Shown here one piece after another: positions 5,478 to 58,570 of a stretch of DNA of 64,000 bases. The DNA is taken from positions 2,656,501 to 2,720,500 of the forward strand of contig NC_135365.1 in the NCBI RefSeq assembly GCF_051622035.1, in the 5' to 3' direction. The notes beneath the pieces were generated by a model. The model did not search any database, was not told where the DNA came from, and was given only the letters and a program-made list of their open reading frames with translations. The DNA comes from Arctopsyche grandis (Eukaryota > Arthropoda > Insecta > Trichoptera > Hydropsychidae). A program made the position numbers and the translations under genes. Each line of letters begins with the position of its first letter. Position 1 is the stretch's first letter.

Positions 5478-5893
5478 CCAGGAAGGCCTAACAAGTAAGC
5501 CCCAATGCGCCTTCCTGGCCAATTACAAGCATCGATATACAATTTTAGAATATTTTAAGAAAGCATCAAAGAGACATCTATGGATAAATTTTGATTTGGA
5601 CCATTTTTCTTATATAAATCATCAAATTTCGAGATGCTTAGTAACTTGAAATTTGCAAGTCATTTATGGACAAATATGCAGCATTTTTATACGAATCAGT
5701 GAAATTCGAAATGCTGAAAACTCGAAAATTGAGAGAAATGGATGAAGTTGCCAATTTGTCTGAAAATCAGATAAATTGGCAAAGTCTGATAGGAAACGAT
5801 CGACCTAGAGTCACAAATCAAGGTCTAGCCAGCAGCAACTAGTGAGACTCGAACCTGTGACCACTATGTTCGAAAGCATATATGCTAACCACT
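5478..5893 (-). mobile_element. tRNA-derived SINE with S1 tail hairpin
   Basis: Minus-strand SINE. A tRNA-like head with B-box-like GGTTCGAGTC lies around 5845, the core GATCGACCTAGAGTCACAAA around 5800, and the 3' hairpin at 5478-5518. That hairpin has stem CCAGGAAGGC/GCCTTCCTGG with the conserved loop. The 5' end of the head is truncated. Confidence 0.75.
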
Positions 5894-5970
5894 AGTTATC
5901 GATTACTGTCAAGCAAAGGATAAATGCAAAGATAAATCATCACCATAAACACTCTAGGGGGTGATTTTTA

Positions 5971-6073
5971 GGACTGTGTACTTTGTATATGGGCTAAGGT
6001 GCTGCGTTTTTTTCGCATGTTTAAAAGTATTTAAAGAAACACGTACCAAATACCACTCAGTGTGTTTTCGCCC
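5971..6073. mobile_element. 103-bp PIF/Harbinger-like MITE
   Basis: Flanked by TTA on both sides (968-970 and 6074-6076 in local numbering). The right end matches CACTCAGTGTGTTTTCGCCC, shared with the copies at 41855 (also 103 bp) and 34103 (296 bp). A 3-bp TTA duplication with GG/CC ends fits PIF/Harbinger MITEs. Confidence 0.6.
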
Positions 6074-6107
6074 TTAAGGAGATTTTAAATATTCGTTTTG
6101 GATTTGC

Positions 6108-6221
6108 TTAGGAAACGATCGACCTAGAGCCACAAATCAAGGTCTGGCCAGCAGCAACTGGTGAGACTCGAACCTGTGACCACTATGTTCAAAAGCATAT
6201 ATGCTTACACAGACCAGCAGC
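6108..6221 (-). mobile_element. SINE head fragment lacking its 3' half
   Basis: Contains the core GGAAACGATCGACCTAGAGC and a tRNA-like head with B-box-like GGTTCGAGTC, but no 3' body or tail. The breakpoint matches the truncated SINE at 42091-42215, consistent with duplication of a common block. Confidence 0.6.
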
Positions 6222-6700
6222 TTGATTTGGGAAAGTTTTGCATGCCATAAAGGCATCGACAAAGGATGACTACGGGAGCTTTCAGTCAATATTATATGAA
6301 TATATATTTTAATAGTCAACTTTGACAATGATGATGCTGATATATACTCATAGACAGTTAAAAATAAATTGAAAAAACTGCACATATACATATATAGACG
6401 GTTGAGCATCTGATCTAATTTCGAGCTTAAGCCCAATGACAAAATAGCGGAAGAAGAAAACTCCATAATAACACTGCAAGAGAAAGACCCTGACACACAT
6501 CATTAAATGATTTATTGCAATACGTACAAAATGAAACGGGAAGTTGTGATTGACAATTACCAAATTATGAACCACAACACTTCGTTTATCACGGTCGTAT
6601 TATATACTAATTTATAAACCGTATGAAACTATCTCTTAATATTTGATGTGTATATTGTGAAGAATACAATCGCAGCATATGAATTTTGGTATTATATTAA

Positions 6701-7204
6701 GAGGGCTGGACACCAGTGCCTTGTTCATACAAACGTATTACACTTCTCCCTTCCTCAATTATGGCACTAGAGAAATTATTTTTTAATATGCTAGGGATAT
6801 CCACCATTAGGATGCATCTATCGTTTTATTTTTTTGATTAGTTATTTTTTATAGGAGCTAGGAGCCGCCAAACATCTATAAAATTGCCTCTTTTTTACAC
6901 CCACGAAAAGACTCCAGCGTACTTATTTAACGGTCGATTTTAAAAAAAATACGCACATAGTTGCACAGAAAATATCTTTCTCATACCGATGATGAAATTT
7001 TTTTAAAAATTGGTCCAGTTTTGGAGGAGAAAATAGGAGAATACGAAACCTCGATGTTGTAGATTTAAAATACGTATTATCTGGTCGAAGCGAAACTGTC
7101 GCATTCACTCAATATATATATTGATATATATTGTCGCATTCACTCAATATAAATATCGAAGAAAGGAACGGTAACAAAATTAAGGTTTCGGGTGTACAGC
7201 CCTC
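6701..7204. mobile_element. 504-bp TTAA-type MITE
   Basis: Ends GAGGGCTGGACACC and GGTGTACAGCCCTC form a TIR with one mismatch. TTAA lies directly outside each end (6697-6700 and 7205-7208), as for piggyBac-like or Kolobok elements. There is no transposase ORF. An internal direct repeat of TGTCGCATTCACTCAATATA lies near 7095 and 7132. Confidence 0.75.
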
Positions 7205-7697
7205 TTAAGCAATCTTCATGGCAACGCTTAAATGATTATATTTGAGGTTGGATTAGTTTATCTGCTTCATTAAGACCAAAGTTTATGGTCTAGTGAGGTA
7301 AATAACCAGAATTAAAGTTGCGTGTAGAAATAAACCTTATTCAATATTTCTGAATGAAACTTTCATTAATAGTTGCATATTGTATGCTTACAAATGTTGT
7401 TTTCAATCAATACGATTTATGTTCCGAGCAAGAATGTTAATAGGAAAAATTCTTGTGCTGATATATCGTCTGCAACTTTTGATTTTATTTGCACGAGTCT
7501 TCTTAATCGACAACAGACGTGAACGTGTTATTATGAAAACATTCTAATTTGTATTGGATTTGTGTGAAGTGCTTTTTAATCTGAATATTTTCGATTGTCA
7601 CGATACAGCTAAAATAAATAAACACAAAACGAAGTTCAATGTAATGAATCATACTGTTTTTACAAAGGCTTTCTTCTTAGGTTTACTTCGCAAACGA
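7205..7697. other. Intergenic, no gene seen
   Basis: AT-rich, with no ORF of recognisable type or clear repeat ends. Confidence 0.5.
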
Positions 7698-7802
7698 TTC
7701 AGTATCTTTTCCTACAGTCTTCAGATCGTTTTGGAACTTTGACATTTTGTGCGCTTTGGTCAACGATGGATACTTTTTACAAGACTCTTCTATGTTTTTA
7801 TG

Positions 7803-8160
7803 GGGTTTGGTGCAAACGATCGACAAGCGCCAGACAGACTGAACCACAGATTAACTGGATGGCTGCTTTAAACGCAATTCTCGACTTTACGAATGATAGA
7901 TTGCACATCAGATGACGAGTACCCTTTCGATGTGCACAGATGCAATTATTAAAATTGAGTTGGATCTTTCTGGCGAGTTTAATAAGGCAAAATTCGGAAC
8001 TAAAGTATCAGGAGCACAGAACGTATACAGGGTAGGTATGTCGGGACTTCGGGTAGATTTCGCTTAGTGTAAGTGCGAGCAGTGCGCACGCATAAGGTAC
8101 ACGTACAGTTAATCTGTGGTTCAGTCTGTCTGGCGCTTGTCGATCGTTTGCACCGCATCG
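7803..8160 (+). mobile_element. 358-bp long-TIR MITE, copy 2
   Basis: Same length and ends as the copy at 1230. No 9-bp duplication is visible. The 105 bp directly to its left (7698-7802) is repeated in inverse orientation at 27795-27897 beside another copy, so this locus or a relative donated flanking DNA to the composite element there. Confidence 0.8.
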
Positions 8161-8574
8161 ATATAAAATATGAATATGTATTTGTTTTACCGCTATGAAA
8201 ATCTGCAGTTTATAATTTATTCATAGTCACCAAATTACAATACTATTACATATGTATATGGTACCCTAAATTAGATTAAAGACTTCAAAGTAAAGTTGAA
8301 CAGGCTAAGAATACAGGTTTTTCATTCTAAATTGACCCTCTTTCATTTAAAATTGACTCTTTTTAATTTCAAATTAAACCTTTTTCATTTCAAATTAAGC
8401 CCTTTTTAATGTCAATTTAATTTAATATATTATATATAAATGCTAGGATGCCCATTGATTCATTATCCGTCAAGCAATTATTTATCGATTAATAATTATA
8501 GAACATAACTAAAAAGTCTTATGTGTAAGACTATGAAAGATATTTATAAGATTTTGGGTTGTTTTGAATCTATA
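8161..8574. other. Intergenic, no gene seen
   Basis: AT-rich with a short local repeat of TTTTCATTT(C/A)AAATTAA-like units at about 8320-8430. The same motif recurs near 28795. Confidence 0.5.
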
Positions 8575-9020
8575 GCCAGCAGCATAGCTCGGTCGTTAAG
8601 CTTCTGCTTAGCGTCGAGAGGCGCCGGGTTCGATCCCATGAGCTCACCTCGATTGAAAATAATTTTTCTGAGTATATCTGTAGTGCTGCTGGTCAGACCT
8701 GGATATTTGTGACTCCAGGTCGATCGTTTCCTACCAGAGTTTGCCAATTTTCTCTGATTTCGTTGTTGAGACGGTTCCCGGTAAAATTGGCTAAATATCC
8801 TTCCTACCTACTATGTCACACTATTTGAGATTGATTAATATGCAATAAAATTTATGTACAATTCATAGATGTCTCGTTAATTTGCGAGTTTTTCAGTGTC
8901 TCGTAATTCAGCGACTTGTATAATAAAAAAAAAATGCTGCAATGTTTGTAATTGGCCAGGAAGGCGCATTGGGGTTACCTGTAAGGCCTTCCTGGTACAT
9001 ATATATGTAAAAAAAAAAAA
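8575..9020 (+). mobile_element. Near full-length tRNA-derived SINE
   Basis: Best reference copy. The tRNA-like head has an A-box-like TAGCTCGGTCG (8585) and B-box GGTTCGATCCC (8627-8637). The central core includes GACTCCAGGTCGATCGTTTC and the repeated GTTTGCCAATTTTCTCTGAT. The 3' hairpin is at 8956-8995, with perfect 10-bp stem CCAGGAAGGC/GCCTTCCTGG and a 20-nt loop GCATTGGGGTTACCTGTAAG. It ends in an A-run at 9008-9020. Pol III transcribed by inference. Confidence 0.85.
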
Positions 9021-9507
9021 TACACAGAATATAAAACATACATATAACCAATTTTGATCTTTATTCTGAGCTCAGGAAAACTATTATACTTGTAAAAGCT
9101 ATTAATATTTATATAGAAACTGTTGTAGGTATTAAATGACAATTCAAACAGTTAAATGTATGAAAGATAATTTTTTTCTTAAAGAAACATTTAAATTTAG
9201 CAAAAACGTCACTTGTCATGATATTTTTTAAATGTATAATGTAAGATTTATACTATATATGTATGTATTTAACTAAAATATATAACGTATTATGTGTAAA
9301 AATTATATATCGATAAAAAGACATATGACTTATATAAGAAATTTATTATTAAAAAAAATTTGTCACAAGTATAAGAGCCAGCTCTTATATAAAATAAAAT
9401 TTTCAGTCTTTCACAAGAACTTTGATATATTATGTAGATTGTAAATCCAAACACAAATGGATTATCATTTTAAGAAAGATGATACAACTCAAAAATCAGA
9501 ATTTTAT

Positions 9508-12171
9508 TTAGGATGGCAGAACTTTGTAAGGATTCAAAATGCCTTTTGGATCCATTAAATTCTTCAAACTCTTCATCAAACCAAGACAAGCATTACTCTT
9601 TGAGTAGTGTATGTAATTTGGCTTTCTAAAACCAATACCGTGCTCGGCACTCACAGATCCTTTGAGATTAGATGTATACTCGTATATATACGGCTCAATT
9701 TTTTTAATAATTTCCTGTGAAAACTCCTTAATCGCAATATTTACGTGAATATTTCCGTCACCTGAAAATATAATAAAAGTAAATTTTAATACATTCCTTT
9801 TAAATAAGGTATAGAATATAAAAAAAAAAAACAATTAAATACCAATGTGACCGTATCCACATATGCGAACGGCATCGCTTCCTAGTTTTTCCCTCATGAT
9901 GGGAACTATTGAATAGTAATCTTTCAATGGTAATGATATATCGTACTTTAAAACGTAGCCGTCATATAATATAGCTTGAGGAATGCCTTCTCTTAAAGCC
10001 CAAATTGGCTAAAATATATTAAACGGTTATTAATTTGTGATTTATATGTAAAAAAAATATTAAACTTCATTGATCAGCACACACTTTAATCCGACTGGGC
10101 TCAGTTTGATATGTTCCGTTCAGAACCAAGTTAGAGGACATGGTTTTTTCTAAAAATTCTGTTAGCTTTTCAGAGTCATGACTTTCATTGCTTCCACTGG
10201 TTTCGATCAAAACATAAAATGGATAGTCTCCTATAGGATTTCTGAAATTTCAGATGAGATTTTCTTTCAAAAATAAAATTGTCATAAGAATATAAATAAT
10301 ATTTTTTCCTAATAAGTTTTGTAGTAAAAGTTGTAATATTATAAATTGATTTAAATACATGTATACATACTGTAGTTTCAAATGTTCAATCGTTGTTTCT
10401 AAAGATGCAGCATCGGCCATTTCAAACGCAGACATTATTTCACCGAGGGATGATTTGGCAAGTTGATATAACTTCAGGACGTTATCAAAATTTTCCACTC
10501 CTTAAAATGTCAAACATTATTATACTACATGTACATAAATCAGCTTTGAATAGATATTTTCAAAGTAGAACAATTGGTTACCTAAGAATGCTACATTTAT
10601 AGAAGACGATAAAGTCGGACAGTTGATGGATACTTTTGTAACAATTCCTAAAGTGCCTTCTGATCCTATAAATAAGTGTTTCAGATGGTATCCAGTATTG
10701 TCCTTCTTTAGAGTTCCCAAACAATCAATGACTTCACCATCAGCTTTCACCTGGAAATATTTTAATGTTTATTACATAACAATGTGTACTACTACAATGG
10801 AGCCCTATAACTTGGATCCTAAAGCGAATATGTACGTTTGGAGTAATGAGAAATGATCAATTTAGATACCCTTTCAGGTATAAACACAGATTACCTAAAC
10901 ACAATCTGCTTTAGGTCATCGACTTTAGAGAGTCTTTAATTAATATTATGTATTAGATGTATTATGAGCATTTATAAGAATTGTAAATAGGTTTTTGAGC
11001 TATTTTTGTATTATGCTGTACATTAACATTAGAATAATATAATACTATGATTACTAACCAAATTAAATTAAATTGTAAAATAGAAAATGATCAGTAGATC
11101 AGTAGCTATTAAAATAGATATAAGATACATAATTTAGCAATAATAAAAAGCATTTACAAATAAAAAACAAATAAATTTGGATATAGCATTAGAAAAGAGC
11201 TAAAATATTAATAGTAGGATTATTAGACGCCCAAAAGTAGTCCTTGATTGATATCAAATAGGAAGTGTTAGGAGATAAGGAGATAATTCACCAGTGAATC
11301 ACATAAACGGTAAGATAATACTTAAAAATATTAAGTTAGTAAGTATTCTATGAATATACTATTGAACAATAAATTCAACTAACAGCTTCAACACCCAATA
11401 CAGATCCGTGAAGGTTTCCATATCGGAGTAATCTCAGTCCACCGGCATTTGTACTGATGTTACCGCCAATATGACATGAACCTTTTGCACCCAAATCTAG
11501 AGGCATCATCAGGTTATGTTCCCTTAAATGGTTATCGAGATTTTCTAATATGCAACCAGCTTCACACACTAGCACACCTGTAAAAAATGCTAGACATCAA
11601 GATGACACTTAAATGGATGTACATTTCTACAAAGCTCACAAATCACACCTGAAATTTCATCCAAGCTAATGATATTGTTCATGCCTTCTGTGCTCAAGAC
11701 TATTTCGTCAAAAACAGGCACAGACCCACCAACAAGTCCAGTATTACCACCTTGTGGACAGACAGCAAGATTGTTATCATTGCAAAACTTCAGTATGGCC
11801 GACACATGCTCCGTGCACTTTGGTTTCAGCACCACACGCGATTCTCCTCTACAATTTTTAATCCAGTCTATGTTATAAGATAGCAATTCAGATTCATCAG
11901 TCAATACTCGTTCTTTGCCTAGTAAATTTTGAAAGAAAGACACATGCGCATCTTCTATGAGATTGAAACTCTTTCGCTTCACGTTGTATTTGTTCTGAAA
12001 CATAACATACACAAATACATGTACATTGTACGGTGTTAGAATTCTTATTGCATGCCCTTTTCATACTTTCGAAAACTCTGGAAGTGAAGATAGTGGTCTG
12101 ATTGAGTGCTTTATGAAATTTTTGAACGGAATCAAACGTATTTCGAATGTTTTGATAGCTTGTAAAGCCAT
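9508..12171 (-). CDS. D2HGDH: D-2-hydroxyglutarate dehydrogenase, mitochondrial
   Basis: FAD enzyme of the mitochondrial matrix that oxidises D-2-hydroxyglutarate to 2-oxoglutarate. Eight exons, minus strand: 12171-12067, 11994-11649, 11577-11384, 10750-10582, 10500-10371, 10241-10085, 10008-9843, 9761-9508; all GT-AG, phases consistent, 506 aa (human about 520). Exon 1 ([20 protein letters not shown]...) is an Arg/Lys/Ser-rich, acid-free-tailed mitochondrial presequence. Exon 2 carries the FAD-binding [18 protein letters not shown]. Exon 3 has [20 protein letters not shown] and exon 4 has [13 protein letters not shown]. The C-terminal metal/substrate motif YGHIGDGNIH spans exons 7-8, followed by [11 protein letters not shown] and [11 protein letters not shown]. 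All key family motifs are intact. The start was chosen because it opens the presequence and its exon splices in frame. Intron 3 carries a J repeat, and a nested MITE cluster begins 74 bp upstream of the start. The stop overlaps a minus-strand AATAAA. Confidence 0.95.
10865..11165 (+). repeat. Repeat J in D2HGDH intron 3, antisense to the gene
   Basis: A longer copy of the 3'-anchored repeat, including CACAATCTGCTTTAGGTCAT upstream of the common part. It is closely similar, in inverse orientation, to the AROS intron copy (25398-25705). Confidence 0.6.
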
Positions 12172-14005: not shown

Positions 14006-14007
14006 TA

Positions 14008-14735
14008 GTGTTGTACCCGATGAAATACCATGGCATGGATGTTGGCTTATTAAGTTATTAAATAATAAAAAATTAAAAGAAATGTGTCAGTCATTTTTTT
14101 CAAATACCTTTTATATTTTTATTTTATTTTATTACAATCAATGTACACTCGTCATTACAGATCGCTCCAATGCGACGAGTGTATGAGAACGGTCAGACAA
14201 CGTATACAACACGTTGAATGGTCAGACAACGTATACATACAGTAGGTTCAATAAACATCGAATACAATAATGAATCAAGTACATAAATAATAACCATAGA
14301 GACATCTATGGATTATTTTTTGATTTTGTGCACAATTATTATTACAATTTGTATACACATAATAAACACGAAATTATAGAGACATCTATAGATTTCAGAT
14401 TTCTGTGCATAATTTTTAGAAATTATACACAAAGATTTTGTGACAACAGGAAATGATCTATTACCAATTTTCAGAAATCGTTTCAACAATGATCAGATAA
14501 AATTGGCAAACTCTGATAGAGAAACGATCTATTTGGAGTCACAAAACCCCAAATCTAACCAGCAGTTTGGTGAATCGAACCAGCGATCGCAGTGGTGCTA
14601 AATATATACGCTACCATTAAGCCATACTGCTGGATGAATATATATTTAATTTTATATTTATATTTAATTGTTTAATATGAAAAAAATGGTGAAAACTACA
14701 TACCTACCAACATATAAGTGAAAAGTTGTTGCATC
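14008..14735 (+). repeat. Repeat K split by a SINE
   Basis: The K 5' part (14008-14139) and K 3' part (14637-14735) are collinear with other K copies. They are separated by the minus-strand SINE, showing that the SINE inserted later. Confidence 0.55.
14140..14636 (-). mobile_element. tRNA-derived SINE with S2 tail hairpin
   Basis: Its head, read on the minus strand, opens CCAGCAGTATGGCTTAATGG with a B-box-like GGTTCGATTC, a different tRNA-like head from the copy at 8575. The 3' hairpin at 14144-14183 has perfect 10-bp stem TACACTCGTC/GACGAGTGTA and loop GCATTGGAGCGATCTGTAAT. The duplicated GAGACATCTAT block appears twice in the body. Confidence 0.75.
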
Positions 14736-20394: not shown

Positions 20395-23300
20395 ATGGTA
20401 AGTAATTCAGAAAGTGAGTTAAGATATTTCGAATATTACTCTGAAAGAGTATTAGAAGTTTGTCAAAATATATATTTAGAAAGTAAGGGCTGCTTTTTTT
20501 TAAAATAAGGTAACGGAACGCACTCCTTGTTCTTGTTTTTGAATCCATATTGTATCATATTCATAAGAACTCCATATTTTATCATTTTGGCCAATTATAT
20601 AATATAAATTAATTAATTTTACGTATCATATATAGTATAATATTGCTAATCTGTCTGTGTATCTGCGATAACGCTCGCCGTACAATATTGGTCGTTTCGA
20701 TTTGACATACATATATACGTCACATCTAAAACACTGCCAGCAAAATGTACGAATATAATAACGAAAGAAAAAAACTTCTATATATACTGTTTGCTACCAA
20801 TGTTTCCTCTAGGCATTTAGCGTCATCTATTTAATTAATTAATTTTTCTATTGGTGTTTTATATTGTTTATATGTAGGTAGGTGGGTAGTTTTTACCATT
20901 TTTTATTTCATATTAACAATTTAATATATTAAAAAGGTATTTAAAAAAAATTTGACCGCGAGCGGATCGAACACAGGACCAACACATTTTTTTTAAATTT
21001 TTATTTTATTTTATAACTTAATACGCCAACATCCATGCGATGATATTTCATCGGGTACTACACTATCGTAGTATAATTTAATCAAATTTGTAGATATCGT
21101 TTTCGTTTCTTCAAAAGTCAATTCCCTAGCTTATATAATTGAACACTGTAATTAGTTCGGCTCTAACCTCAACAGGTAAGAAATTAGGTGGATTCAGGAA
21201 ACAGATTAAATTAAGCAAAATTTCAGCGGAAACAAAAAACCTAATTAAGCATAAAAGGAATTTAGATAGGGATAATAATAAGCAAGAATACAATCTAGTA
21301 AATAAGGAAATTAAAAAGAGAATAGTCAGGGATGTCAGGGATTTTAACAGCAAGCTAATAGAAAATACCATTAAGAATAACCGTAGCCTAAAAAAGTGCA
21401 AACAGGATCTTTTCTTAGGCAAAAACCAAATGATCGCAATCAGATCAGAGAGCGGAGTAATAATTAGGAATAGAGAAGAAATCATAGACAGAGTTCACAC
21501 GTTCTATGCAAAACTATACGAGAACGACAACGGCCAATTCCCCGCTCTGGAATCGACACACGGCCAAAGGGTTCCTGCAGTATTGCCTAGCGAAGTAGAG
21601 GCCGCGCTAAAAACTGCAAAGAACGGTAAAACCCCAGGGGAAGATAATATTCCCATTGACTTACTAAAATGTGGCGGCCCCCCCCTAATTAATATCTTAG
21701 CTAGGCTTTTCAGCAAATGCATCCAGAACCAAGCTATACCAGAAGGATGGAATAACGCAACTATCATTTTAATACACAAAAAAGGCGACAAAAGCGATAT
21801 CAAGAACTACCGACCCATTAGTCTACTTTCAGCGGTCTACAAGCTCTTCACGAAGGTTATTACAGAAAGGCTGAAGAATATCCTCGACGAGAACCAACCT
21901 ATAGAGCAGGCAGGGTTTAGGGCAAATTTCAGCACAATGGACCACCTCCAAGTAGTTGGCGAACTAATCGAGCGCGCCAACGAATATCAACGGCCATTGT
22001 GCCTAGGTTTCGTCGATTATGAGAAAGCCTTCGATACAGTTAGTCATAATGCAGTACTTAACGCTCTAAAAACACAGGGAGTGCCGGAACCCTATGTGGG
22101 ACTGTTAGCTGCAATATATAAGAATGCCACAGCTTCGGTTAAAATTTTTTCAGGTACAGATAGATTTAGCATAGGAAAAGGAGTAAGACAAGGAGATACA
22201 ATCTCGCCCAAGTTATTCAATGCGGTGCTTGAGGGAGTTTTCAGGAAATTGGATTGGGATACAGCCGGAGTAAGCATCGATGGTCGCTTTTTGAGTCACC
22301 TTCGGTTCGCAGACGATATAGTTTTAGTAGCTCGTGATTCAGCTGACCTACTTATCAGACTAACACAGCTGGACAGGGAAAGTAGAAAAGTAGGATTAAA
22401 AATTAACGTAGATAAGACTAAACTAATGTTCAATAGCTATTGCATGCCTGATAGCATCCCCTTAGATGATAAACCAGTAGAAGTAGTAAATAATTATTTA
22501 TATTTAGGCCAAATAATTGACATGTCTGGTAGTAAAAATGAAGAGATAAAGAGACGTATGAAATTAGGGTGGAGTGCATTTGGACGGATGAATGCTGTTT
22601 TTAAATCAAAAATGCCACTCTGCCTGAAGAAAAGGATCTTTGATCAATGCGTTTTGCCAGTGATGACGTATGGATGTGAAACTTGGACACTGAACGCCAA
22701 GATGCAAAATAAAATCCAATGCACTCAAAGAAGTATGGAACGCTGTATGCTTGGCATAACGAGGAAAGACAGGAAGCGGAACACGTGGGTGAGAAATATG
22801 ACAAGGGTAGTGGACATAGTGGATAGAGTGAAGAGATTGAAATGGCAATGGGCGGGTAACGTAGCTAGGAGGATGGACGAAAGGTGGACAAAAGAAGTGC
22901 TTGAATGGTACCCGAGAGAAGGCAAAAGAGTAAAAGGAAGACCGCAAGGAAGATGGGTGAACGAAATTAGGAAAATGTGCGGAATGAGATGGATGAGTGT
23001 TGCGCAAAACAGAGACGAGTGGAAGCGTGTTGGAGAGGCCTTCATCCAGCAGTGGATGGCGAATGGCTGTAAATGATGATGATGATGATGATATGTATTA
23101 CGGCATTGATGGGCCATTTTATCTTGATATTTAGGGTTCGGTTATTAGCTCTTAAATGATAACAACTTCAATAACAACGTGAGTAAATCGAGTTGTCAAC
23201 ACTACAAAGGTCACTGCAGTAGAGGTGAAATCAAAATCGATATGCTATATAGAGCTTAAAATAGAAAAGTGTTGATGGTTCAGATTTATTTTGCTGCTGT

Positions 23301-26735: not shown

Positions 26736-27284
26736 ATGTCAAACATGTGGATCGTAGTAGGTTTATCAGGCGTGACTTGTGGAGGAAAGTCGACGATATC
26801 CAAAAAGCTCAAAGATACATTGAAACGGTGCGAAGTATTGAATCAAGACGACTATTTCCATCCGGATGATAGTCCAATCTTAGACAAAGTGGAAAATTTG
26901 GAGCATAATAACTACGACAATCTCGCTTGTCTCGATATGGAAAAAATGTACGACGATGTTATGAAGATTATTAATAAGTCGGATCCATCTGATGAGCCTT
27001 CTGTTTTGGTATTGGACGGGTTTTTGATTTTGAATTACAAACCGATCGCCGATCTTTGCCGTTTGAAGTATCAGGTGTTTTTGGATAGGGAAGAATGCTT
27101 GCGCCGTAGACATTTGAGGACTTATTTGCCACCTGACATTCCAGGGTATTTCGAATTGTGCGTCTGGCCCGAGTATTGTAAATACAATGATGAGGTGAAG
27201 ATGATGGACGACGTCACCTTTCTTGACGGGAAGGCCAACGATTCGTTTGACAAGATTTTAAATGATATAAAACAACTTTTTTAA
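26736..27284 (+). CDS. NMRK1: Nicotinamide riboside kinase
   Basis: Cytosolic P-loop kinase that phosphorylates nicotinamide riboside to nicotinamide mononucleotide for NAD+ salvage. Single exon, 182 aa, close to the family's usual length. Walker A motif GLSGVTCGGKST (residues 9-20, Lys18). NQDDYFHPDD matches the QDDFF substrate motif, and LDGFLILNYKP and FLDREECLRRRHLRTYLPPD cover the central strand and LID arginines. DIPGYFELCVWPEYCKY is the conserved PPD-PGYF...WP-Y block. The start is fixed by the hydrophobic strand leading into the P-loop; there is no room for an upstream extension before the DPM2 stop 21 bases earlier. AATAAA at 27327-27332 is the only evident polyadenylation signal downstream of the three-gene cluster. 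Confidence 0.95.
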   Translation: MSNMWIVVGLSGVTCGGKSTISKKLKDTLKRCEVLNQDDYFHPDDSPILDKVENLEHNNYDNLACLDMEKMYDDVMKIINKSDPSDEPSVLVLDGFLILNYKPIADLCRLKYQVFLDREECLRRRHLRTYLPPDIPGYFELCVWPEYCKYNDEVKMMDDVTFLDGKANDSFDKILNDIKQLF

Positions 27285-29718: not shown

Positions 29719-30073
29719 AAATGTTATAATAATAGAAGGGCCCTTACGAATAAATAAATTGTGTCAATATTACGCGGTACGTCTCTACAATAACTACGCT
29801 ACAACGCACGGAATACAATCAGATCAATTCACTTATAAAAATGTATCCCTTGTTGTTTATTGTGTGTTATTGAATGCATTGTGCAAGTTTTAACGATGCA
29901 CTTGCCCATCTTGCGAGTAATATAAACAAACAGAGAAGTTTTTATCGGACATACATCAAAAACCAAGCATCAAATACGACTGACGCTAAAATTATTTAGA
30001 AATGTCTGTGGACAATCGTCACTTGACAACAATATTACGTCTTAAGTCACTTATATTATTATAACATTTCTCT
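29719..30073. mobile_element. TIR element containing a satellite monomer
   Basis: Ends GAAATGTTATAATAATA and TATTATTATAACATTTC are inverted. The interior from about 29829 shares long stretches (GAATGCATTGTGCAA, CATCTTGCGAGTAATATAAA, AGCATCAAATACGACTGACG) with the 292-bp satellite at 60.5 kb. Confidence 0.7.
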
Positions 30074-30357
30074 GTAAATACCAATAGAAAAATTTATCAA
30101 TTAAATAAATTTTCAATAAATGGCGCTAAATGCTCGGAGAGATTTACCTAGAAAAAACATTGGTAACAAACAGTATATATACATAGAAGTTTTTTTCTTT
30201 CGTTATTATATTCGTACATTTTGTTGACAGTGTTTTAGTTGTGACGTACATATGTATTTCGAATCGAAACGACTATTATAGTATGGCGAGCGTTATCGCA
30301 GATACACACACACAGACGCTCATTATATATATGATATTTTATTTTTACATAGATATA

Positions 30358-30495
30358 TACCAGGAAGGTTTGACAGGAAGTCAAAGGAAGTCTTCTGGAA
30401 ATACAGTTATTTATGTAATAATAAAATGCTGCATTGTTTGTAATTAATTGTCCAGGATGGCGCATTGGGGTCTTCCTGTCAAGCCTTCCTGGTAT
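30358..30495. mobile_element. Head-to-head SINE tail fragments
   Basis: A minus-strand partial S1 tail begins at 30360. A plus-strand hairpin at about 30452-30493 (CCAGGATGGC/GCCTTCCTGG) has a loop starting GCATTGGGGTCTTCCTGT, intermediate between loop types 1 and 3. The 76-aa ORF here is not a gene. Confidence 0.6.
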
Positions 30496-30644
30496 ATATC
30501 TACGTAAAAATAAAATATGTATGTATGTACATATGTATAAGTGTAATATATCATTAAAAATATTAGTTTTATTAATAATATCTCAAAATTTCATTTGATA
30601 CAAGATTCACAGAAACTTAATCGAGAGATTTTTCTGTCGTAGCT

Positions 30645-32335: not shown

Positions 32336-32376
32336 CCATTTTGGCATTACATGAAGAACCTAATGCGCCACAATGG
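32336..32376 (-). mobile_element. SINE-type tail hairpin, S3 stem
   Basis: Minus-strand stem CCATTGTGGC/GCCAAAATGG around a 21-nt loop starting GCATTAGGTTCTTCATG. Only the element's 3' end is present. Confidence 0.6.
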
Positions 32377-36341: not shown

Positions 36342-36683
36342 ACCAGGAAGACCTAACAGGTAACCCAAATGCGCCTTCCTGGTCAGAAAACTTGTACATT
36401 TGATACAAATATTATTAGAATTATACAATCAATTATACATATCAATTAATATCCACTGAGACATCTATGGTCAGATTTTTAAATTTGCAGCATTTTATAC
36501 AATTCAGCGAAATTTGAGATTGCTGAAAACGCGGGATTTTGCTCGAAAATGGGTAAGTTTGCCAATTTGTTGGAACCGTTTCAATGAAAATCAAATATAT
36601 TGTCAAATTATGATAGGAAACGATCGACTTGGAGTCACAAATCCAAATCTGTTCAAAGCATTATATGCTAATCTCTAGTCAAT
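36342..36683 (-). mobile_element. SINE, S1 tail, head mostly lost
   Basis: Hairpin at 36343-36382, core GGAAACGATCGACTTGGAGT near 36620, head truncated after CTGTTCAAAGCATTATATGC. Confidence 0.7.
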
Positions 36684-37133: not shown

Positions 37134-37174
37134 CCATTGTGGCATTACAGGAAGAACCTAATACGCCAAAATGG
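37134..37174 (-). mobile_element. SINE-type tail hairpin, S3 stem
   Basis: Minus-strand stem CCATTTTGGC/GCCACAATGG with loop starting GTATTAGGTTCTTCCTGTAA. No body or head is attached. Confidence 0.6.
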
Positions 37175-40895: not shown

Positions 40896-41330
40896 CTTAT
40901 ACCAGGAAAGCCTAAAAGGTAACCCCAATGCGCCTTCCTGGACGGAAACATTGAAAATTTGATACAAATTATTTTTATTTATTTATTTCATTTTTTACAT
41001 ACATATATACCAGGAAGGTCTTACAGGTAACCCCAATGCGCCTTCCTGGCCAATTACAAACATTGCAGCATTTTTTTTTATTATACAAGTCGCTGAATTA
41101 CGAGACACTGAAAAACTCGCAAATTAACGAGACATCTTTGAATTGTACATTAATCATACTCAAATAGTGGTGACATAGTAGGTAGGAAGGATTTTAGCCA
41201 ATTTTTAATCGGGGACCATTTCAACAATGGAATCAGAGAAATTGGCAAACACTGATAGGAAACGATCGACCTGGAGGCACAAATATACAGGTCTGACCAA
41301 CAGAACTACAGATATCCATATGTAACCGAC
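40895..41330 (-). mobile_element. SINE tail fragment plus a truncated SINE
   Basis: Hairpin-only copy at 40902-40941. Then a copy with hairpin 41010-41049, body with GAGACATCT and GAAACGATCGACCTGGAG, and head lost beyond about 41330. Confidence 0.7.
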
Positions 41331-41404
41331 GAGTTTCTCCTACATTTCTTCAAATATGGGATTCATCGTTATTTATTTAGTATTTTGAGTATTTATTTTT
41401 AATA

Positions 41405-41782
41405 TATACCAGGAAACAGGTAACATCAATGCGCCTTCCTAGCCAGAAACATTGTATCTATACATTTGATACAAGTATTATACAAAGTAAATAAATATCA
41501 ATTAACACCCACAGAGACATCTATGGTCATATTTTTAAATTTGCAGCATTTTTATACGAATCAGTGAAATTCGAAATGCTGAAAACTCGAGTATTGCGAG
41601 AAAATGGGTAAGGTTGCCAATTTGTTGGAACCGTTTCAATGAAAATCAGATAAATTTGGTAAACTCTGATAGGAAACGATCGACCTGGAGTCACAAATCC
41701 ATGGTCTGGCCAGCAGAAACCAGTGGGATTTTAGCCCGTGACCACTCTGTTCAAAGCATTATACATATGCCTACCACTAGTT
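41405..41782 (-). mobile_element. SINE with partly deleted S1 hairpin
   Basis: The loop-side 5' stem is shortened (CCAGGAAACAGGTAAC). Core GGAAACGATCGACCTGGAGT is near 41671, with a tRNA-like head to about 41782. It pairs with the SINE at 5478 as part of a duplicated block. Confidence 0.7.
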
Positions 41783-46801: not shown

Positions 46802-47570
46802 ATACCAGGAAGGCTTAACAGGTAAACCCCAAATGCGCCTTCCTGGTCCACATAGTTATTACATCATCATTTACAGCCATTCGCCATCCACTGCTGGATG
46901 AAGGCCTCTCCAACACGCTTCCACTCGTCTCTGTTTTGCGCAACATTCATCCATCTCACTCCGCACATTTTCCTAATTTCGTTCACCCATCTTCCTTGCG
47001 GTCTTCCTTTTACCCTTTTGCATTCTCTCGGGTACCATTCAAGCACTTCTTTTGTCCACCTTTCATCCATCCTCCTAGCTACGTGACCCGCCCATTGCCA
47101 TTTCAATCTCTTCACTCTATCCACTATGTCCACTACTCTTGTCATACTTCTCACCCACGTGTTCCACATTCTGTCTTAACATAGATACATGTAAATCTAA
47201 ACAATATCTGACATCTATGGTCAGATATTACAAGCATCGTATTAATACGATAAATAACAATGAATAACTTTCATGTAATAATATGATTTTTTTTTATATT
47301 CGATAAACAACCACAGAGACATCTATGGTGAGCAATATGGCGAAACCTAAGATATAACAATAACTAAAGGTTCGCAACAGAAAATTGGAAAGGAAACGCC
47401 AATTTTTACAGGAATCGTTTCAATGAAAATCAGAATAATTGGCAAATTCTGATAAGAAATGATCGACCTTGACAAACCAAGATCTGGCCAACAGCGAGAC
47501 TTAGCGGGAATCGAACTCGTAACATCAAGTACGAAATAATTCAACATTCACCACTAGACCACGCTGTTGG
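46802..47570 (-). mobile_element. SINE split by an RTE fragment
   Basis: Hairpin at 46805-46846. The body resumes after the RTE piece and continues to a tRNA-like head whose minus-strand start reads CCAACAGCGTGGTCTAGTGG with B-box GTTCGATTCC. ACATAG occurs at both edges of the RTE piece, a possible target duplication. Confidence 0.7.
46860..47180 (-). mobile_element. RTE 3'-end fragment
   Basis: Encodes the last ~100 residues of the RTE protein (VARRMDERWTKEVLEWYPRE, GRPQGRWVNEIRKMCG) and the TGA-repeat tail. About 95% like the copy at 22.8-23.1 kb by eye. Heavily 5'-truncated. Confidence 0.85.
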
Positions 47571-51584: not shown

Positions 51585-52390
51585 TGTTTCTCATTAAAGT
51601 ATTTCATCTTTCTTTGACTTTTCAAAATAAACAATTGAGAGCTTTCACAGTGGAAAATTGATCACAATATACAGATGTTAAACTTGCTTATGCAAAATCT
51701 GTATAAAACATTGGGTGAATTGAATTTATGAGACAGTCATTTTGCAGGTTTTTTGTCACGATTTGCGCGATTTATTGAGGTTGAAGATCCATCCGAGGGA
51801 TGAATCTATGACTTTTGGTTTATTTTTTCGGTTATCAGTCTATGCATAGTCGAAAACTGGTTTACAGGTTCGTTCGCGCGTCCGATGATCGTCGACCCGT
51901 TCATTCATCAGCTAACCGCAAGAGTATAACTTCAGATGATGCCGCAACCGCAAGAATTGATTCGAAAGACTCGGATTTGTCTGTCCGTCGGTCACTATTA
52001 CACCCCTAGGTGGTATGTATCGATTACCACTGAGAATATTTTCACACGTTCGATTCATCGGCTTAAATTGGCCACCGATAGAGAGATTTATCTGCAGATG
52101 AACTGTCTTTAGAGATCAGTTCGTCTGCCAAAGGACGAGGCTGTTTTATTCGCAATATTATATAATTAAACTTAAGAATGTTAGACGTATGTTAGATGAA
52201 TTGAAATGGTTGGATATTAGAAATAGTCTTAAATTAAACACATTAAAATTTGTATATAAGCTATGTAGATAAGAATCTATTAGCACTGTATATGCGAGAT
52301 TTTTTTTAATTAAAAAAATATAACAACCCGACACTCTTTAATATTACACAAAATAAATAAATAGAATTGTTCATATAAATATTCATATAA
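51585..52390 (+). other. Intergenic with a possible terminal exon
   Basis: After acceptor TTTACAG the interval 51868-52009 is open (47 codons), reading FVRASDDRRPVHSSANRKSI then a Ser/Asp/Arg-rich tail to TAG. Its codon use is more balanced than its surroundings, but no partner exon or family is recognised. Confidence 0.3.
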
Positions 52391-52391
52391 A

Positions 52392-52770
52392 CGGGCTAGT
52401 GCTTAGCATATTATGCTTTCGAGTGCAGTGGTCACAGTTCGATTCCCACTAGTAGCTTTTGGCTAGATCTTGGTTTGTGACACCAGGTCGATCTTTTCTT
52501 ATCAGAGTTTGGTAATTTTTCTGATTTTCATTGAAACCATTACTGCAAATTGGGACCTCCTTTTCAATCTCTCTTGCAAATCTCAAGCTATTCAGCGTCT
52601 TGAGGTTAGCCAATTTCTATAGTAAAAATGCTGTGAAAATTGCTCCATAGATGTCACAGTGGATGATGTTTGCATGAATTCGCATTGTATTGATTATATT
52701 GTATAAATGCTTTCACAATGGTACTTTGCAATGTTTGACCATCGATGTCGTATATAATGTAAAAATATAT
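52392..52770 (+). mobile_element. SINE, plus-strand copy
   Basis: tRNA-like head with GCTAGTGCTTAGCATATTAT and B-box AGTTCGATTCCC, then the core GTCGATCTTTTCTTATCAGA. The tail region is unclear. Confidence 0.65.
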
Positions 52771-53135
52771 TTTATAAATAATAAAATCAGTTTTCGGCTA
52801 GTATTTTATTATAAAATTATAAGTATTATATTGTTAAATGCTGAAAATAATAAATAACAGATGGACAGTATAAAAATTTGATGCGCGTAATTGACAGAAT
52901 TGTCTATCAATTTTTACGAATCTTGTGTTGATACTAATAAAAACGTAATAATGGCCATTTTTCAAAATAAAACTTAGCATTTAACGTTAATACTGACTAT
53001 TTATGTATAAATATTGACCATTTTTTACTTACCTCTTCTTAACTTGCCTTACGATTACAATTTAGTAAAAAATTTGGCTCTTATCCGATCGTTTTCATGC
53101 CATTTTTGTATAAATACTGAAAATTTATGTATTGA

Positions 53136-53340
53136 TTTTGATTTTTAAATGCTTTTTATTATTACTAAATTATGTTCACAATACATCTTATATCTATTTC
53201 TATAGCTACTGATCTACTGATCATTTTTTATTTTACAATTTAAATTTAATTTTGTTAGTAATCATAGTATTATATTATTCTAATGTTAATGTACAGCATA
53301 ATATGAAAAAGAACTCAAAAACCTATTGCACAATTTACAT
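53136..53340 (-). repeat. Repeat J
   Basis: The same 3'-anchored segment (TGCTTTTTATTATTACTAAA on the plus strand) as at 25398 and 55862. Confidence 0.65.
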
Positions 53341-53604
53341 ATGTATAAATATTAACCATTTAATATAAATTTACATTTATTTTTTTTATTTTTATGCATT
53401 TCTACATATGTACATCTGTTGTCTGTTGATTTTTCATTAAATAAATAAATACTGACCTTTCATTACTTATACCGACCACTTGTATACTAAACAATAGATA
53501 CTAGTTGTATAATATAAATACTGACCTTTCATATTTAAATACTGATAAAACTAGACTAAAATACTTGCCAGCAATTTTTTTATTTATTTTTTTACATAGA
53601 TATA

Positions 53605-53976
53605 TACCAGAAAGACTTGACAATTAAATACAAACAATGTAGCATTTTATTATTACACAAATCACTGTACTTCCAGAAGCTGAAGAACACGAAATGACAA
53701 TTAATTACAGAATTAATCCATTGAGACATCTATGGATTTAGATTTTGTACAAATTATACACACAATAAATACAGAAGATTTTTGACAGCAGGAAAGATGA
53801 TTTTTTGCCAATTTTGAGGAACCGTTTCAACAATGATCAGATAAAATTGACAAACTCTGATAAGCAACGATCGATTTGGAGTCAAAAATTCCCCCAAATC
53901 TAAACAGCAGTATGGCGGATCGAACCCACTGATCACTTGGTACTAAACATACACGCTGCCATTAAGCCATACTGCT
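53605..53976 (-). mobile_element. SINE with eroded tail
   Basis: The head on the minus strand starts CCAGCAGTATGGCTTAATGG, as in the copy at 14140, and the core GAAACGATCGATTTGGAGTC-type is present. The S1 hairpin is reduced to CCAGAAAGACTTGACA. Confidence 0.65.
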
Positions 53977-54880
53977 GGCTAATATACAAGTTCATAAAAT
54001 ATGTATATCTTGGTCACCCGCTATCCATCAAGGTGCGGCAAGTGTTAATGATCTTTTTTTACAAAATTGCATTGCAAAAATATATTTTATACCACAACCG
54101 ATTCTCGAAAGTCTTACGATAGATTTTTCAGCCGACAAAAGCCAGTGTTCAGCTTTGTATGATGTTTTTTCTTTATAGGTCTTTATATACCTATATATAG
54201 TATTAACGTACAAGTTGATTATTAACTTGTTTGTTTCTATTTTGAATTTTATATTATTTTCAACGGCTCCCGAACGAGAATGTGTTTGTATACTCGAAGT
54301 TCAATTAAGCGAGTAAAACATATGATTTTTTTTATATTATTATTATCGTTTGGTCTCTAGCATGTATGAGCCATTGTGTCGTTGGACAGTTTAATGAGGT
54401 GTTTTGATTAAATTGGATACCTTCTCGATCAACACTCTCCCGACTGGTGGACGAGGCTTTGGGGTTATTCAAGGAGGTAGTTGCTTTTGAAAAAATCGCA
54501 TAGTCATCGTTTCGACCATCGAATGATTAGATAGACTATGTTTGATATTTTTAGAAATAATAAGGTCAAACGTGCCTGGGAAAAGGGTGAATTTTCCGGT
54601 GCGAATTTTATGTAATTTAATATTGCACAATACTATTTAAAATATTGCACAGTACTATTTAGGGAAGCTTTGTATTTGCGGCTGGTTCTTATATAATATA
54701 TTGGTGCTGGCTATAGGTGCAAGACACTCCCTACTTTGTATTTTATTATTTGGTAATTTTACTTGATCTGCTGTTATTATAATGCTAATATTTTTTATGA
54801 TTATGTATAAATGTATTTTTGTCTATGTATATACATATGCATATATTTTTAGTTTTTTTAATCTCTGTGTATTTTTTCGA
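53977..54880. other. Intergenic, no gene seen
   Basis: AT-rich. A short duplication of ATATTGCACA(A/G)TACTATTTA is at about 54615-54665. Confidence 0.45.
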
Positions 54881-55099
54881 CCATTGTGGCGCATTAAGGA
54901 CTCCAGTAAGGGGCGGGCCGCACAGTGCGACTTGTGAGCGACTTGGTTGAGGGCGACCAGACCAATGCACTCAGGTAGATGGGACATGCCACACCCGTCA
55001 ACTTATTTGTCGCACACATTTTCATACATTTTTTCGTGTCGCGCAACTAGTCGGCCGACAAAGTTGTACTGTGCGGGCCCGGCCCTAATGCTACAATGG
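54881..55099 (+). mobile_element. S3 tail hairpin with a MITE inserted in its loop
   Basis: The stem CCATTGTGGC (54881-54890) pairs with GCTACAATGG (55090-55099). Removing the inserted MITE and one TAA leaves the 20-nt loop GCATTAAGGACTCCAGTAAT. Confidence 0.65.
54910..55085. mobile_element. 176-bp PIF/Harbinger-like MITE
   Basis: Ends GGGGCGGGCCGCACAGTGCG and, inverted, GGGCCGGGCCCGCACAGTAC. TAA duplicates at 54907-54909 and 55086-55088. Confidence 0.75.
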
Positions 55100-55246
55100 T
55101 CCAAACTAAAACTTAAATATATAAATAAAACAGCGGAGATATTTGTTGGAAAATCGGTCTAAACATATTTGTCTGTCGTTGTGGTTTCTCGGTGGCTTAC
55201 TAAATAACAAACAATCGTATGTTATGTTTTAGATGATTGATGATAT

Positions 55247-55657
55247 TGTTACGTACGCCGCGGATTAAGTGAATAGAATCCCAGAGACTATGTAAGTGCT
55301 TGCACTTAGACCAACGGATATCTGTTATTGGATTAGCTAAGTGCTTGCACTTACCTTCCAGGATTATATCTGGACTCTAAGTGCATTTAGGCTAAACAAT
55401 GACCGTTATTAGTCTTTTCTCAGAATCAGTACGGGGAGACCCAATGTCGTGGAAATACATATCCGAATACGTGACTATACAACAGGTAAACAGATTAGAC
55501 GACCTGAGAGATCTACCCTTTATAAGGCGGTACGTAGGCGATATCATGTCATTCTGGACTGAGCACTGCCAGTGCGTGTATCTCCTTAATCATCAATAAA
55601 CGCTGTCAAACGACTGTTGGCCTTTTACTTGGATCCTCCACCCACCCCTACGCAACA
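55247..55657 (+). mobile_element. Solo LTR, 411 bp
   Basis: TGTTACGTACGCCGC ... CCTACGCAACA with a 4-bp ATAT duplication (55243-55246 and 55658-55661) and an internal AATAAA near 55597. Gypsy-like by duplication length. A near-complete minus copy is at 63203-63594. A 66-codon frame (MTVISLFSESVRGDPMSWKY...) is open in both copies. Confidence 0.75.
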
Positions 55658-56892
55658 ATATGTAACGACAAAATAGTCTCGTTGTTTTTGTTGATATGAT
55701 TTCAAGTCATATATTTTAAAGATACTTTTTCCAATAATAAATTTATAAACAATTGATTACTTATATATAGTATACAATGATTTTGAAAATTTGATATGAC
55801 TTTATTTACCGATTTTGGCTATGCAATGGTTCTTTAAACGTATACCTATGTACATATGTTTGATTTTGATTTTTAAATGCTTTTTATTATTACGAAATTA
55901 TGTTCACAATACATCTTATATCTATTTTAAGGACTACTGATCTACTGATCATTTTCTATTTTACAATTTAATTTAATTTGGTTAGTAATCATAGTATTAT
56001 ATTATTCAAATGTTAATGTACAGCATAATAGGAAAAAGAGCTCAAAAACCTATTAACAATTCTTACCTACATATGTAACTGTAATATATGATATCAAATT
56101 ATATAATACTTGAATAAAAATTCATAATATACGTGACGAAATTTTGGCAATAAACAAACGCTTTTACGACTATTGCCGAATTGCAGAATAATGACGCGTC
56201 TGTTTGCGGCGTCCGCTCTTGACCGAATCAAATATTAAATAACGATTTCCTATCAGACCTGAAGTTGGAAAAAAATCGTCTATTGAATTTCAATTTTATT
56301 GATGTGTAATAAATTTTTTCTCGATCACAAATGATTTTTATTGTCTATGGAAGCCGAGAAAAGCTAATTTTCCGCTCGGGTATGCGTATTGATTCAAATT
56401 TTAATGTTATTATATTTTGATTGCAATATTACATACGTAGGTATATTATACTTTCATAATATTGGCATTGGATCTATGTATGTACATGTGTACATGTGTA
56501 TATGTGTATACATAATAAAATAGCCGAGCGATGATTTTAATCGATTAGTTGGAGTTAGCGGTCTTCGTTTACACGCATACATAACTATGTACATGCATAT
56601 AATCCATACAGTGCGACTCTTTTATACTTACTATTTATTTATTTAAATTACAATTTTGCCAAGAGTAGTTCCAAATCGTCACTATGGATAAACAAAAAAA
56701 ATAATTAAGTATACCTATACAATAAGATGAAAATAAAATAAGCATAAATATAAAACTAATAAACAAATTAAACAATCAACCAGATCAGTATATTTTAGAT
56801 TAAAAAAATCCAAACTAATAGAAATCCGGTTGAGGAGCTTGATGCCCCTGGCAACAGGCGACGAAACCATCATGTTGGTACTTGGTAATATA
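55658..56892. other. Intergenic with repeat J copy
   Basis: J repeat on the minus strand at about 55862-56072; otherwise AT-rich without genes. Confidence 0.5.
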
Positions 56893-57035
56893 CTACACTA
56901 GTTGTTTTACCCGGCTTCACTCAGTATTTGTAATATAAACAGCTTAAACATGGCGAATCTAATAGTAAATATTCATTCGTCGTCCCAACCAAAAATACTA
57001 ACAAACAAACTAAGTCTCTTTCGAAATTATATAAA
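56893..57035 (+). repeat. Repeat C, short copy
   Basis: Begins ACTAGTTGTTTTACCCGGCT and includes GGCGAATCTAATAGTAAA and TCTCTTTCGAAATTATATAA. Confidence 0.55.
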
Positions 57036-57825
57036 CAATCATGGACGCACATTTACGTCTCAAAAATCAAAATCAAGTGATTTTAGTAAATGTATACAAT
57101 TTTGGAGCTTTTTGCACATTTGGGTCGTCGTCGCAAGTGACAACCCATATGTAATATTTAATATTGGGCCGAATAGTAGATATGAACATACATATGTAAA
57201 TATAATCCGTACATCAATAAGCTACATATAAACACAAAAACTTGAACGTTTCTTTAGACATGTGTCACATCTTTTGGGTTTTATGAATGCTAATGAAAGA
57301 TGGTAGGATTTGTGCGTTTTCTTTTTACCCGATAAACAGCCTACTTTTCCGTAAATGAAAAATAAAACGGAATAAATCGCGCTAACGAAGCAACAGTCGA
57401 CTTTGCAAAGTAATATATGTAATATAATATGTGAATAACTATCGGAGCGTGAAATAGTTAAAAAGACGAACGCTGAAGCTCGCACTAAGTAAACCTGTAA
57501 ATAATCCGATGATAGTAGACACGTCAGCGCTTCTCAAACTGCATCTTCGATCTGTATACTTACATTTATATCGGGGATTCTTAACCTTTTAAAGTATTAA
57601 CATTCTAAGCGAGGGAGTGAGTCTTAACCTGATGTGAAACGTAACGCTTTAATCTTGTGAGTCACAGTGGCGACACCTGTTGCTTATTTTGTAGAGCTCA
57701 ACAACTTGCCTCTGACATTTCGCTGCGCATTACGCATTACATTTGGTGTCGCTCATGTCCTTCTAGATTTGCAACTTGAAACTTAATAAGTGACCTTCCA
57801 CAAACTCGTTTATTAAAAGCAGCGT
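57036..57825. other. Intergenic, no gene seen
   Basis: No supported exon or recognisable repeat end. Confidence 0.45.
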
Positions 57826-58570
57826 GGTCTAGTGGTGAGTGTTGTATTCTTTCGTGCAAGGTGTCACGGGTTCGATTCGCACTAGAGTCTCGTTGTTGGC
57901 CAGACCTTGGTCGATCTTTTCTTATCAGAATTTGCCAATTTTTCTGATTTTAGCTAACCCCCGTTTGTCGGTAAAATATCAATGCGATCTAAAGAGTGGA
58001 AGTGGTTCGAAATCAGATTTTTGACGGGCAGGAATTTCATGGAACTAATTTATGTACATATATGCTAACCAGCAGCGCGGACTAGAGGTTAGCATATTAT
58101 GCTTTTGAATGGAGTGATCACGGTTCGATTCCCACTAGTATCTGTTGGCCAGACCTTAGTGTGTGACTTCAGGACAATCGTTTCTTATCAAAGTTTGCCA
58201 ATTTTTATGATTTTCATTGAAACGGTTCCTTTAAAATTGGCATCTTCTTTCCTATCTCTCTTGCTAATCTCAAGTATTCAGCGTCTTGAGGTTCGCCAAT
58301 TTATATAATAAAATGCTTCAAAAATTTCTCCATAGACGTCAGAGTGGATGCTTTTTGTATGAATTCGCATTGTATAAAATGCTTGTATTGATTGTATCAT
58401 TGTATTGTGTCGGTATGAATACAATTGCCGCTTTGGAGCGATCTGTAAAGGCGAGTATAGTTCGATTGAAATAAAATAATAAAATAAAAAAAATATATAC
58501 CAGGAAGGCCTAACAGGTAAACCCCAATGCGCCTTCCTAGCGAAATACAAACATCGATAAACAATTATAT
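57826..58570. mobile_element. Cluster of three SINE copies
   Basis: Plus-strand 57826-57960 (head GCAGCGTGGTCTAGTGGTGA, B-box GGTTCGATTC, 3' part lost). Plus-strand 58071-58492 (head GCAGCGCGGACTAGAGGTTA, tail with loop-like GCTTTGGAGCGATCTGTAAA and AATAAAATAA end). Minus-strand tail fragment 58498-58570 with S1 hairpin at 58500-58540. The second and third abut tail to tail. Confidence 0.7.

Follow-up and report, generated by a model that had tools for sequence, protein, structure and literature searches.

Why do elements of two kinds, short interspersed elements (SINEs) and long interspersed elements (LINEs), end in one type of hairpin whose stem is variable and whose loop is conserved? The question is raised by a 64-kb stretch of the net-spinning caddisfly Arctopsyche grandis (Trichoptera, Hydropsychidae), bases 2656501–2720500 of contig NC_135365.1 in the 475.7-Mb assembly, hereafter called the window. 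The hairpin is probably the 3' recognition element of caddisfly LINEs in a "stringent-type" LINE/SINE system, borrowed by tRNA-type SINEs. Since the SINEs and the self-copying elements end in the same tail, the tail is probably the grip of the copying enzyme on the RNA.

Motif hairpins were defined by a 10-nt stem with at least nine Watson-Crick pairs and at least four G/C in the 5' arm, and by a loop of 19–22 nt starting with GCATT or GTATT. The window contains 11 of them, while each of 20 dinucleotide shuffles contains 0. The hairpins are real, are located at element ends, and are beyond chance. A search of Rfam gives no match at gathering scores. Exact-pattern scans for the hairpins in viral contigs and genome contigs, from which the caddisfly's own and near genomes were perhaps left out, give no match either.

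A preliminary description of this DNA distinguished three stem types, S1, S2 and S3. Its positions are confirmed for S1, with both arms at eight sites, for S2 at 14144-14183, and for S3 at 32336 and 37134. The exception is 54881, where only 4 of 10 stem positions are paired, the fold z-score is 0.13, and the 3' arm is absent. The tails of the window are as follows.

5478-5518, minus strand: S1 terminal hairpin of a tRNA-type SINE, 57.1 bits in the covariance search; SINE core at 5748-5817, minus strand
8956-8995, plus strand: S1 terminal hairpin, 10/10 paired, fold z-score -4.57; SINE core at 8706-8791, plus strand
14144-14183, minus strand: S2 terminal hairpin of a SINE, 50 bits in the covariance search; SINE core at 14461-14545, minus strand
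30452-30492, plus strand: S1 terminal hairpin; no SINE core within 520 nt upstream
32336-32376, minus strand: S3 hairpin and A-rich tail without SINE body, the LINE 3' end type
36343-36382, minus strand: S1 terminal hairpin of a SINE; core at 36559-36641, minus strand
37134-37174, minus strand: S3 hairpin and A-rich tail without SINE body, the LINE 3' end type
40902-40941, minus strand: S1 terminal hairpin immediately downstream of the SINE ending at 41010
41010-41049, minus strand: S1 terminal hairpin of a SINE; core at 41197-41283, minus strand
41401-41446, minus strand: S1 hairpin of a SINE, decayed; core at 41614-41697, minus strand
46805-46846, minus strand: S1 terminal hairpin of a SINE split by an RTE-like LINE; core at 47398-47472, minus strand
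53589-53623, minus strand: S1 tail reduced to the 3' arm; SINE core at 53805-53887, minus strand
54580-54910 (left bound approximate), plus strand: LINE 3' untranslated region (UTR) resembling those in stretches L016 and L017 (by eye), ending in the S3 5' arm and loop at 54881, 3' arm lost
58420-58459, plus strand: S2 terminal hairpin of a SINE, degenerate; core at 58162-58242, plus strand
58500-58540, minus strand: S1 terminal hairpin of a SINE; core at 58947-59028, minus strand
60177-60215, plus strand: S2-type hairpin followed by a AATAAAATAAAA tail, 25.5 bits and E 1.9e-6 in the covariance search; 3' end of a LINE-like fragment

The SINEs are composite: they open with a tRNA-like head, continue with a core around TTTGTGACTCCAGGTCGATCGTTTCC and a body, and close with the hairpin and its A-rich tail. 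No tRNA is called by ARAGORN anywhere in the window, and the head was therefore judged by eye, which shows A- and B-box-like strings. The core search returned 19 rows; without three weak rows on the opposite strand (E >1), 16 copies in SINE sense are left. A hairpin on the same strand is present downstream of nine of the 16 cores, including the decayed one at 41401-41446. One core (53589-53623) is followed by the 3' arm alone, and the other six have no hairpin of their own in the 560 nt inspected. The tails stand at element ends, on SINEs and also on LINEs. The earlier description assigned all hairpins to SINEs; the S3 copies at 32336 and 37134 are LINE ends, the 520 nt upstream of them being free of a SINE core. 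Two S1 tails, one of them with part of the hairpin, form a facing inverted pair at 30342-30511.

The SINE cores also hold another hairpin, GACCTGG/CCAGGTC or GATTTGG/CCAAATC, for example at 8696-8721 (plus strand) and 14530-14555 (minus strand). In its stem, 87.0% of cells (one pair in one copy) are paired versus 81.1% after shuffling. Four of its seven pairs are changed on both sides, which 9 of 500 shuffles match; the observed count of pair types, however, is reached in 258 of 500 shuffles and is no excess.

Closely related SINE bodies bear different tails. Over about 290 bp of head, core and body, the SINE at 14144 is 80% identical to the one at 53589; the former has an S2 tail, the latter an S1 tail of which the 3' arm is left. 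The SINEs at 14144 and 58420 have a common 75-bp tail which starts within one base of the hairpin, and their front parts are 68% identical. SINEs may change their partner LINE by gaining another tail.

Partner LINEs were sought in the window and in further stretches of the genome, which are designated by L numbers. L002-L008 came from a query with S1, and S1 hits in them are accordingly not random; L009-L028 and L043-L047 were sampled at round coordinates. The LINE fragments of the window and the four further stem types found in these stretches are listed here.

59889-60059, plus strand: C-terminal fragment of a LINE-like open reading frame (ORF), including the stop codon; E 0.0083, and E 0.015 with another training set excluding the fragment
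56718-56897, minus strand: C-terminal fragment of a LINE ORF of a third lineage; E 2e-5, and E 3.5e-6 when trained without the fragment
56640-56687 (far bound approximate), minus strand: broken S6-like terminal hairpin of the preceding LINE (by eye), with 5' arm CCATAGTGAC, loop start GATTTGGA and no 3' arm
46862-47177, minus strand: RTE-like LINE, 5'-truncated, nested in a SINE spanning about 46805-47560; not the partner
L024:3481-3520: S4 hairpin
L007:2612-2651: S5 hairpin, ending an element with SINE-like head and core (by eye)
L017:9890-9930: S6 hairpin, nothing recognisable upstream
L028:8738-8777: S7 hairpin, ending an element with SINE-like head and core (by eye)

The preliminary description had suggested a partner LINE and a search for one with the same 3' end, and such LINEs are found. 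For S3, the best 40 of 113 candidates were scored, and the best 10 copies after the window's own were taken together with some 0.7 kb of upstream sequence. In six of these 10 (L029, L030, L032, L035, L037 and L038), tblastn detects the C-terminal part of a LINE ORF upstream of the hairpin; the query was built from the letters of L029, L035 and L037, so that three of the six matching copies had contributed to it. L031 aligns with the six in its 3' part. The piece directly upstream of L029 (L041) matches the reverse transcriptase domain RVT_1 at 30.6 bits, above the cut-off of 29.6, and the L040 piece upstream of L037 matches it at 25.1 bits, under the cut-off. Relatives of a 157-aa C-terminal piece of this LINE (L042) are present in Lepidoptera, for example Spodoptera, Leguminivora and Parnassius. 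From its appearance, the S3 LINE may be CR1/Jockey-like. The stretch L024 contains the S4 end of a second LINE, which is 34% identical to the S3 LINE over 56 aa. A first look for its C-terminus yields 5246 candidates; the best 150, which were scored, are all 95-100% identical, and many have a 960-aa open frame. The S4 LINE is apparently young, judging from these C-terminal protein matches and the 3' end in L024.

The S2 hairpin at 60177-60215 starts 117 nt past the stop codon of the LINE-like fragment 59889-60059. The S2 tail is thus seen both on SINEs (14144, 58420, L014:7602 and L022:8753) and on a LINE-like fragment (59889-60215), so that one 3' end is common to SINEs and a LINE, the latter modestly supported. 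S3 and S4 are seen on LINEs only, and the S4 and S2 LINEs are known from the C-terminus alone. Among the LINEs, at least two lineages (S3 and S4) end in the hairpin, as do several families of SINEs. Binding by the reverse transcriptase of such LINEs, as suggested earlier, is a prediction. A 14-bp minisatellite (CGCCGACATAAGCG) lies at 59627-59905, directly upstream of the S2 LINE-like fragment.

The association was counted in the window, 25 ten-kb stretches, and L002-L007, with LINE C-terminal matches at E <0.05. This gives eight loci: L023, L024, L016, L017, L026, L002, and window positions 56718 and 59889; four of them (L024, L002 and both window fragments) were included in the profile. Both hairpin arms are present downstream at three of the eight (L023, L024 and window 60177), and partially at L017. 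L016, L026 and window 56687 retain the 5' arm and loop alone or decayed remains, and none is seen at L002. A same-strand hairpin is expected by chance within 450 nt of 2.9% of ends, and three of eight corresponds to P 0.0013. An RTE-like LINE was rejected as the partner: its copy at 21139-23076 ends in an ATG repeat, and a second copy is nested in a SINE. This second copy (46862-47177) adjoins the SINE hairpin upstream and mimics a hairpin-bearing LINE.

The presence of the hairpin on both kinds of element could also be explained if it serves transcript stability or 3' end definition, which LINE and SINE RNAs need alike. SINEs and LINEs are normally transcribed by different polymerases, and a 3'-terminal element exchanged as a tail unit therefore fits reverse transcription better than stability. 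The binding implied by recognition is itself inferred, and the other hairpin of the SINE core possibly covaries as well. Recognition has an experimental precedent, however, in the accessible part of PMC4176376, and a role in stability or end definition is considered unlikely.

The preliminary description gave a 10-bp stem and a 20-21 nt loop. The stem is as described, whereas the loop is structured. Single folds and RNAalifold place a second helix of 4 bp toward the apex, UGGG/CCUG, UGGA/UCUG or UAGG/CCUG, with U-G and G-U wobbles, and a conserved GCAU/UAA internal loop separates it from the basal stem. RNAalifold on 12 hairpins recovers both helices unaided. The RNA is thus predicted to form a basal stem of about 10 bp, an internal loop of GCAU (5') and UAA (3'), a 4-bp apical helix which opens with a U-G wobble, and an apical loop of 4-5 nt. 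Eight hairpins were folded, with z-scores between -4.57 and -0.67; the latter value belongs to the degenerate S2 copy at 58420, and S3 at 32336 has -1.50. The sense strand folds better than the antisense in 12 of 12 hairpins, and 60177 agrees, which fits a constraint on the RNA in sense orientation.

The stems change in a paired manner. Among 12 hairpins, 94.6% of cells are paired versus 76.8% after shuffling. Among 15 diverse hairpins, the value is 91.9%, versus 68.8% after shuffling and 34.3-52.2% with slid partners; the covariation score is 0.676 versus 0.230, and 52 cells are changed on both sides versus 17.2. These three measures are above every shuffle. The apical U-G pair is kept in all 15, and the adjacent pair is G-U in 11 and A-U in four. 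Between S1 and S2, four of 20 stem letters are identical compared with 14 of 20 in the loop, and eight of 10 basal pairs are doubly compensated. Between S1 and S3, 12 of 20 stem letters and 13 of 20 loop letters are identical, with three compensated pairs. The three stems, described before as unrelated, therefore include one that differs throughout (S2) and one that resembles S1 (S3).

A scan by the loop alone, ignoring the stem, covered the window and twenty 10-kb stretches. Of 41 hits of at least 16 bits, 32 have flanks paired at eight or more of 10 positions. The background is 1.7% at random positions, and two of 292 among loop hits of 8-16 bits. The loop matrix was trained on window loops, so only the 27 hits outside the window are independent of the training; 20 of these 27 are paired at eight or more positions, many with S1 or S3 stems. 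The arms pair better with arms of their own cluster than with those of another (6.9 vs 4.9, P 0.005). Seven arm clusters were used, two of which are single hits looking broken or false (L025:9648 and L024:51), and single linkage joins S1, most of S3 and one S6 into a cluster of 27. Five further stretches contain L046:5369 (S1), L045:8824 (S1) and L045:559 (S2). The pairing against shuffles and the paired flanks of loop-selected hits support selection on an RNA structure, as was first proposed.

Several facts weigh against a conserved recognition element. In the 15 diverse hairpins, 157 of 500 shuffles also reach nine pairs with changes on both sides, and 24 of 500 attain the observed number of further pair types, because diverse stems vary by themselves. 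The 91.9% and the 52 cells come from 15 hairpins mostly chosen from model hits, which favours pairing, and from few lineages, so that the cell counts are inflated, the cells not being independent events. The comparison of S1 with S3 reveals no excess of loop over stem conservation, and the S1 copies share one common stem and mostly exhibit decay. A terminal stem-loop with a short tandem-repeat tail is the rule, but L027:913-954 fits the model (26.4 bits) without an A-rich tail. Among the LINEs, the S4 3' end is known from one copy (L024), and the S2 fragment is modestly supported: the same scans give E 0.023-0.49 for the antisense of the nicotinamide riboside kinase gene, which is surely no LINE. 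No LINE with S1, the commonest SINE stem, or with S5 or S7 is seen in the sequences searched.

Some of these facts would agree with common descent only, in which all tails derive from one ancestral LINE tail and the likeness of the loops is residual, with no present selection. Most changes within S1 stems disrupt or weaken pairing, and a compensated pair is absent from all eight copies compared. Residual likeness does not account well for S1 and S2, however, where eight of 10 pairs are doubly compensated and 14 of 20 loop letters kept, nor for the excess of cells changed on both sides over shuffles in the 15 hairpins. Descent without selection is thus quite improbable.

It is even less probable that the hairpin is the conserved 40-bp V-domain stem-loop of mollusk and arthropod SINEs. 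We know of no likeness between the letters of the V-domain and the caddisfly hairpin motif. The length class is similar, and the V-domain stem-loop occurs in arthropods too, but in the accessible text of PMC5135761 (citing Matetovici 2016) it is central and is set apart from 3' UTR stem-loops. The caddisfly hairpin, in contrast, is terminal and is common to SINEs and LINEs. Helitrons also have terminal hairpins, and a Helitron 3' end is a hairpin followed by CTRR, without an A-rich tail. Ends of a Helitron-like or otherwise palindromic kind, or an artefact arising from nested insertion, can be dismissed almost entirely, although one RTE-like LINE does sit inside a SINE of the window, because most hairpins are followed by A-rich tandem tails and because, owing to the conserved wobble pairs, all 12 hairpins compared fold better in the RNA sense.

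For the recognition element, the following mechanism is the most likely. The ORF2 protein of a LINE would bind the hairpin and start target-primed reverse transcription, by analogy with the ZfL2 elements. Sequence would matter mainly in the internal loop and apical helix, and shape in the basal stem. If the stem is read by shape and the inner motif by sequence, the stem drifts by compensation and the inner motif is kept. A more specific idea, possible but with less than an even chance, is that the GCAU/UAA and U-G apical module is kept across diverged LINE lineages of one genome, each lineage replacing the whole basal stem. If so, the stem is a lineage-specific key on a common lock, and SINEs could switch their host LINE by taking up another tail of about 75 nt. 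Self-recognition of the RNA tail by LINEs and theft of the tail by SINEs are experimentally resolved for few elements. This genome offers a natural series, with one inner motif, several stems, two or more LINE lineages, and a number of SINE families, and its natural stem swaps make the roles of stem and loop directly testable.

The window also contains other features. The open frame 26739-27284 (plus strand) encodes nicotinamide riboside kinase (NRK1); the first eight species-named matches listed for it are all from Lepidoptera, with 46-49% identity. The open frame 11590-12060 (minus strand) resembles an exon of D-2-hydroxyglutarate dehydrogenase by eye. A 292-bp tandem repeat of about four copies is located at 60519-61874, and a diverged part-copy lies 30 kb away at 29854-30011.

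The preliminary description knew of no SINE family with this pattern. No description of the tail in caddisflies was found in the literature searched, most subscription papers, and the one on stem-loops of mollusk and arthropod SINEs, being outside the search. None of the three papers containing the hairpin strings is on SINEs by title, and the words hairpin and stem-loop are absent from the main text of both a caddisfly repeat survey (PMC8881205) and a paper on lepidopteran SINEs (PMC8010984). The SINEs of the latter, as far as its accessible text describes them, are similar in being from insects and tRNA-derived and in having common bodies. The general pattern is not new. According to the accessible part of PMC3747384, L1-clade LINEs of monocots and SINEs of maize and sorghum have a common 3' end of about 45-50 nt, with compensatory changes in the stem and conserved loop letters. 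The caddisfly tail resembles these pairs in having a 3' hairpin common to LINE and SINE, a variable but compensating stem, and conserved loop letters; the monocot pairs differ in LINE clade and host, in the loop UCU, and in the 3' flank CGAG (PMC3747384). The stringent-type L2 LINEs ZfL2-1, ZfL2-2 and UnaL2 likewise have a 3' stem-loop and SINE partners, and the ORF2 protein of ZfL2 binds the stem-loop of the tail, with specific recognition of the loop and general recognition of the stem (PMC4176376, accessible part). Recognition by ORF2 is experimental in ZfL2 and inferred in the caddisfly. A LINE/SINE hairpin with a compensating stem and a conserved loop is thus already known, and the caddisfly case adds to that kind a tail whose 10-bp stem leads through a conserved internal loop to an apical wobble helix, with at least two LINE lineages and several SINE tail types in one genome.

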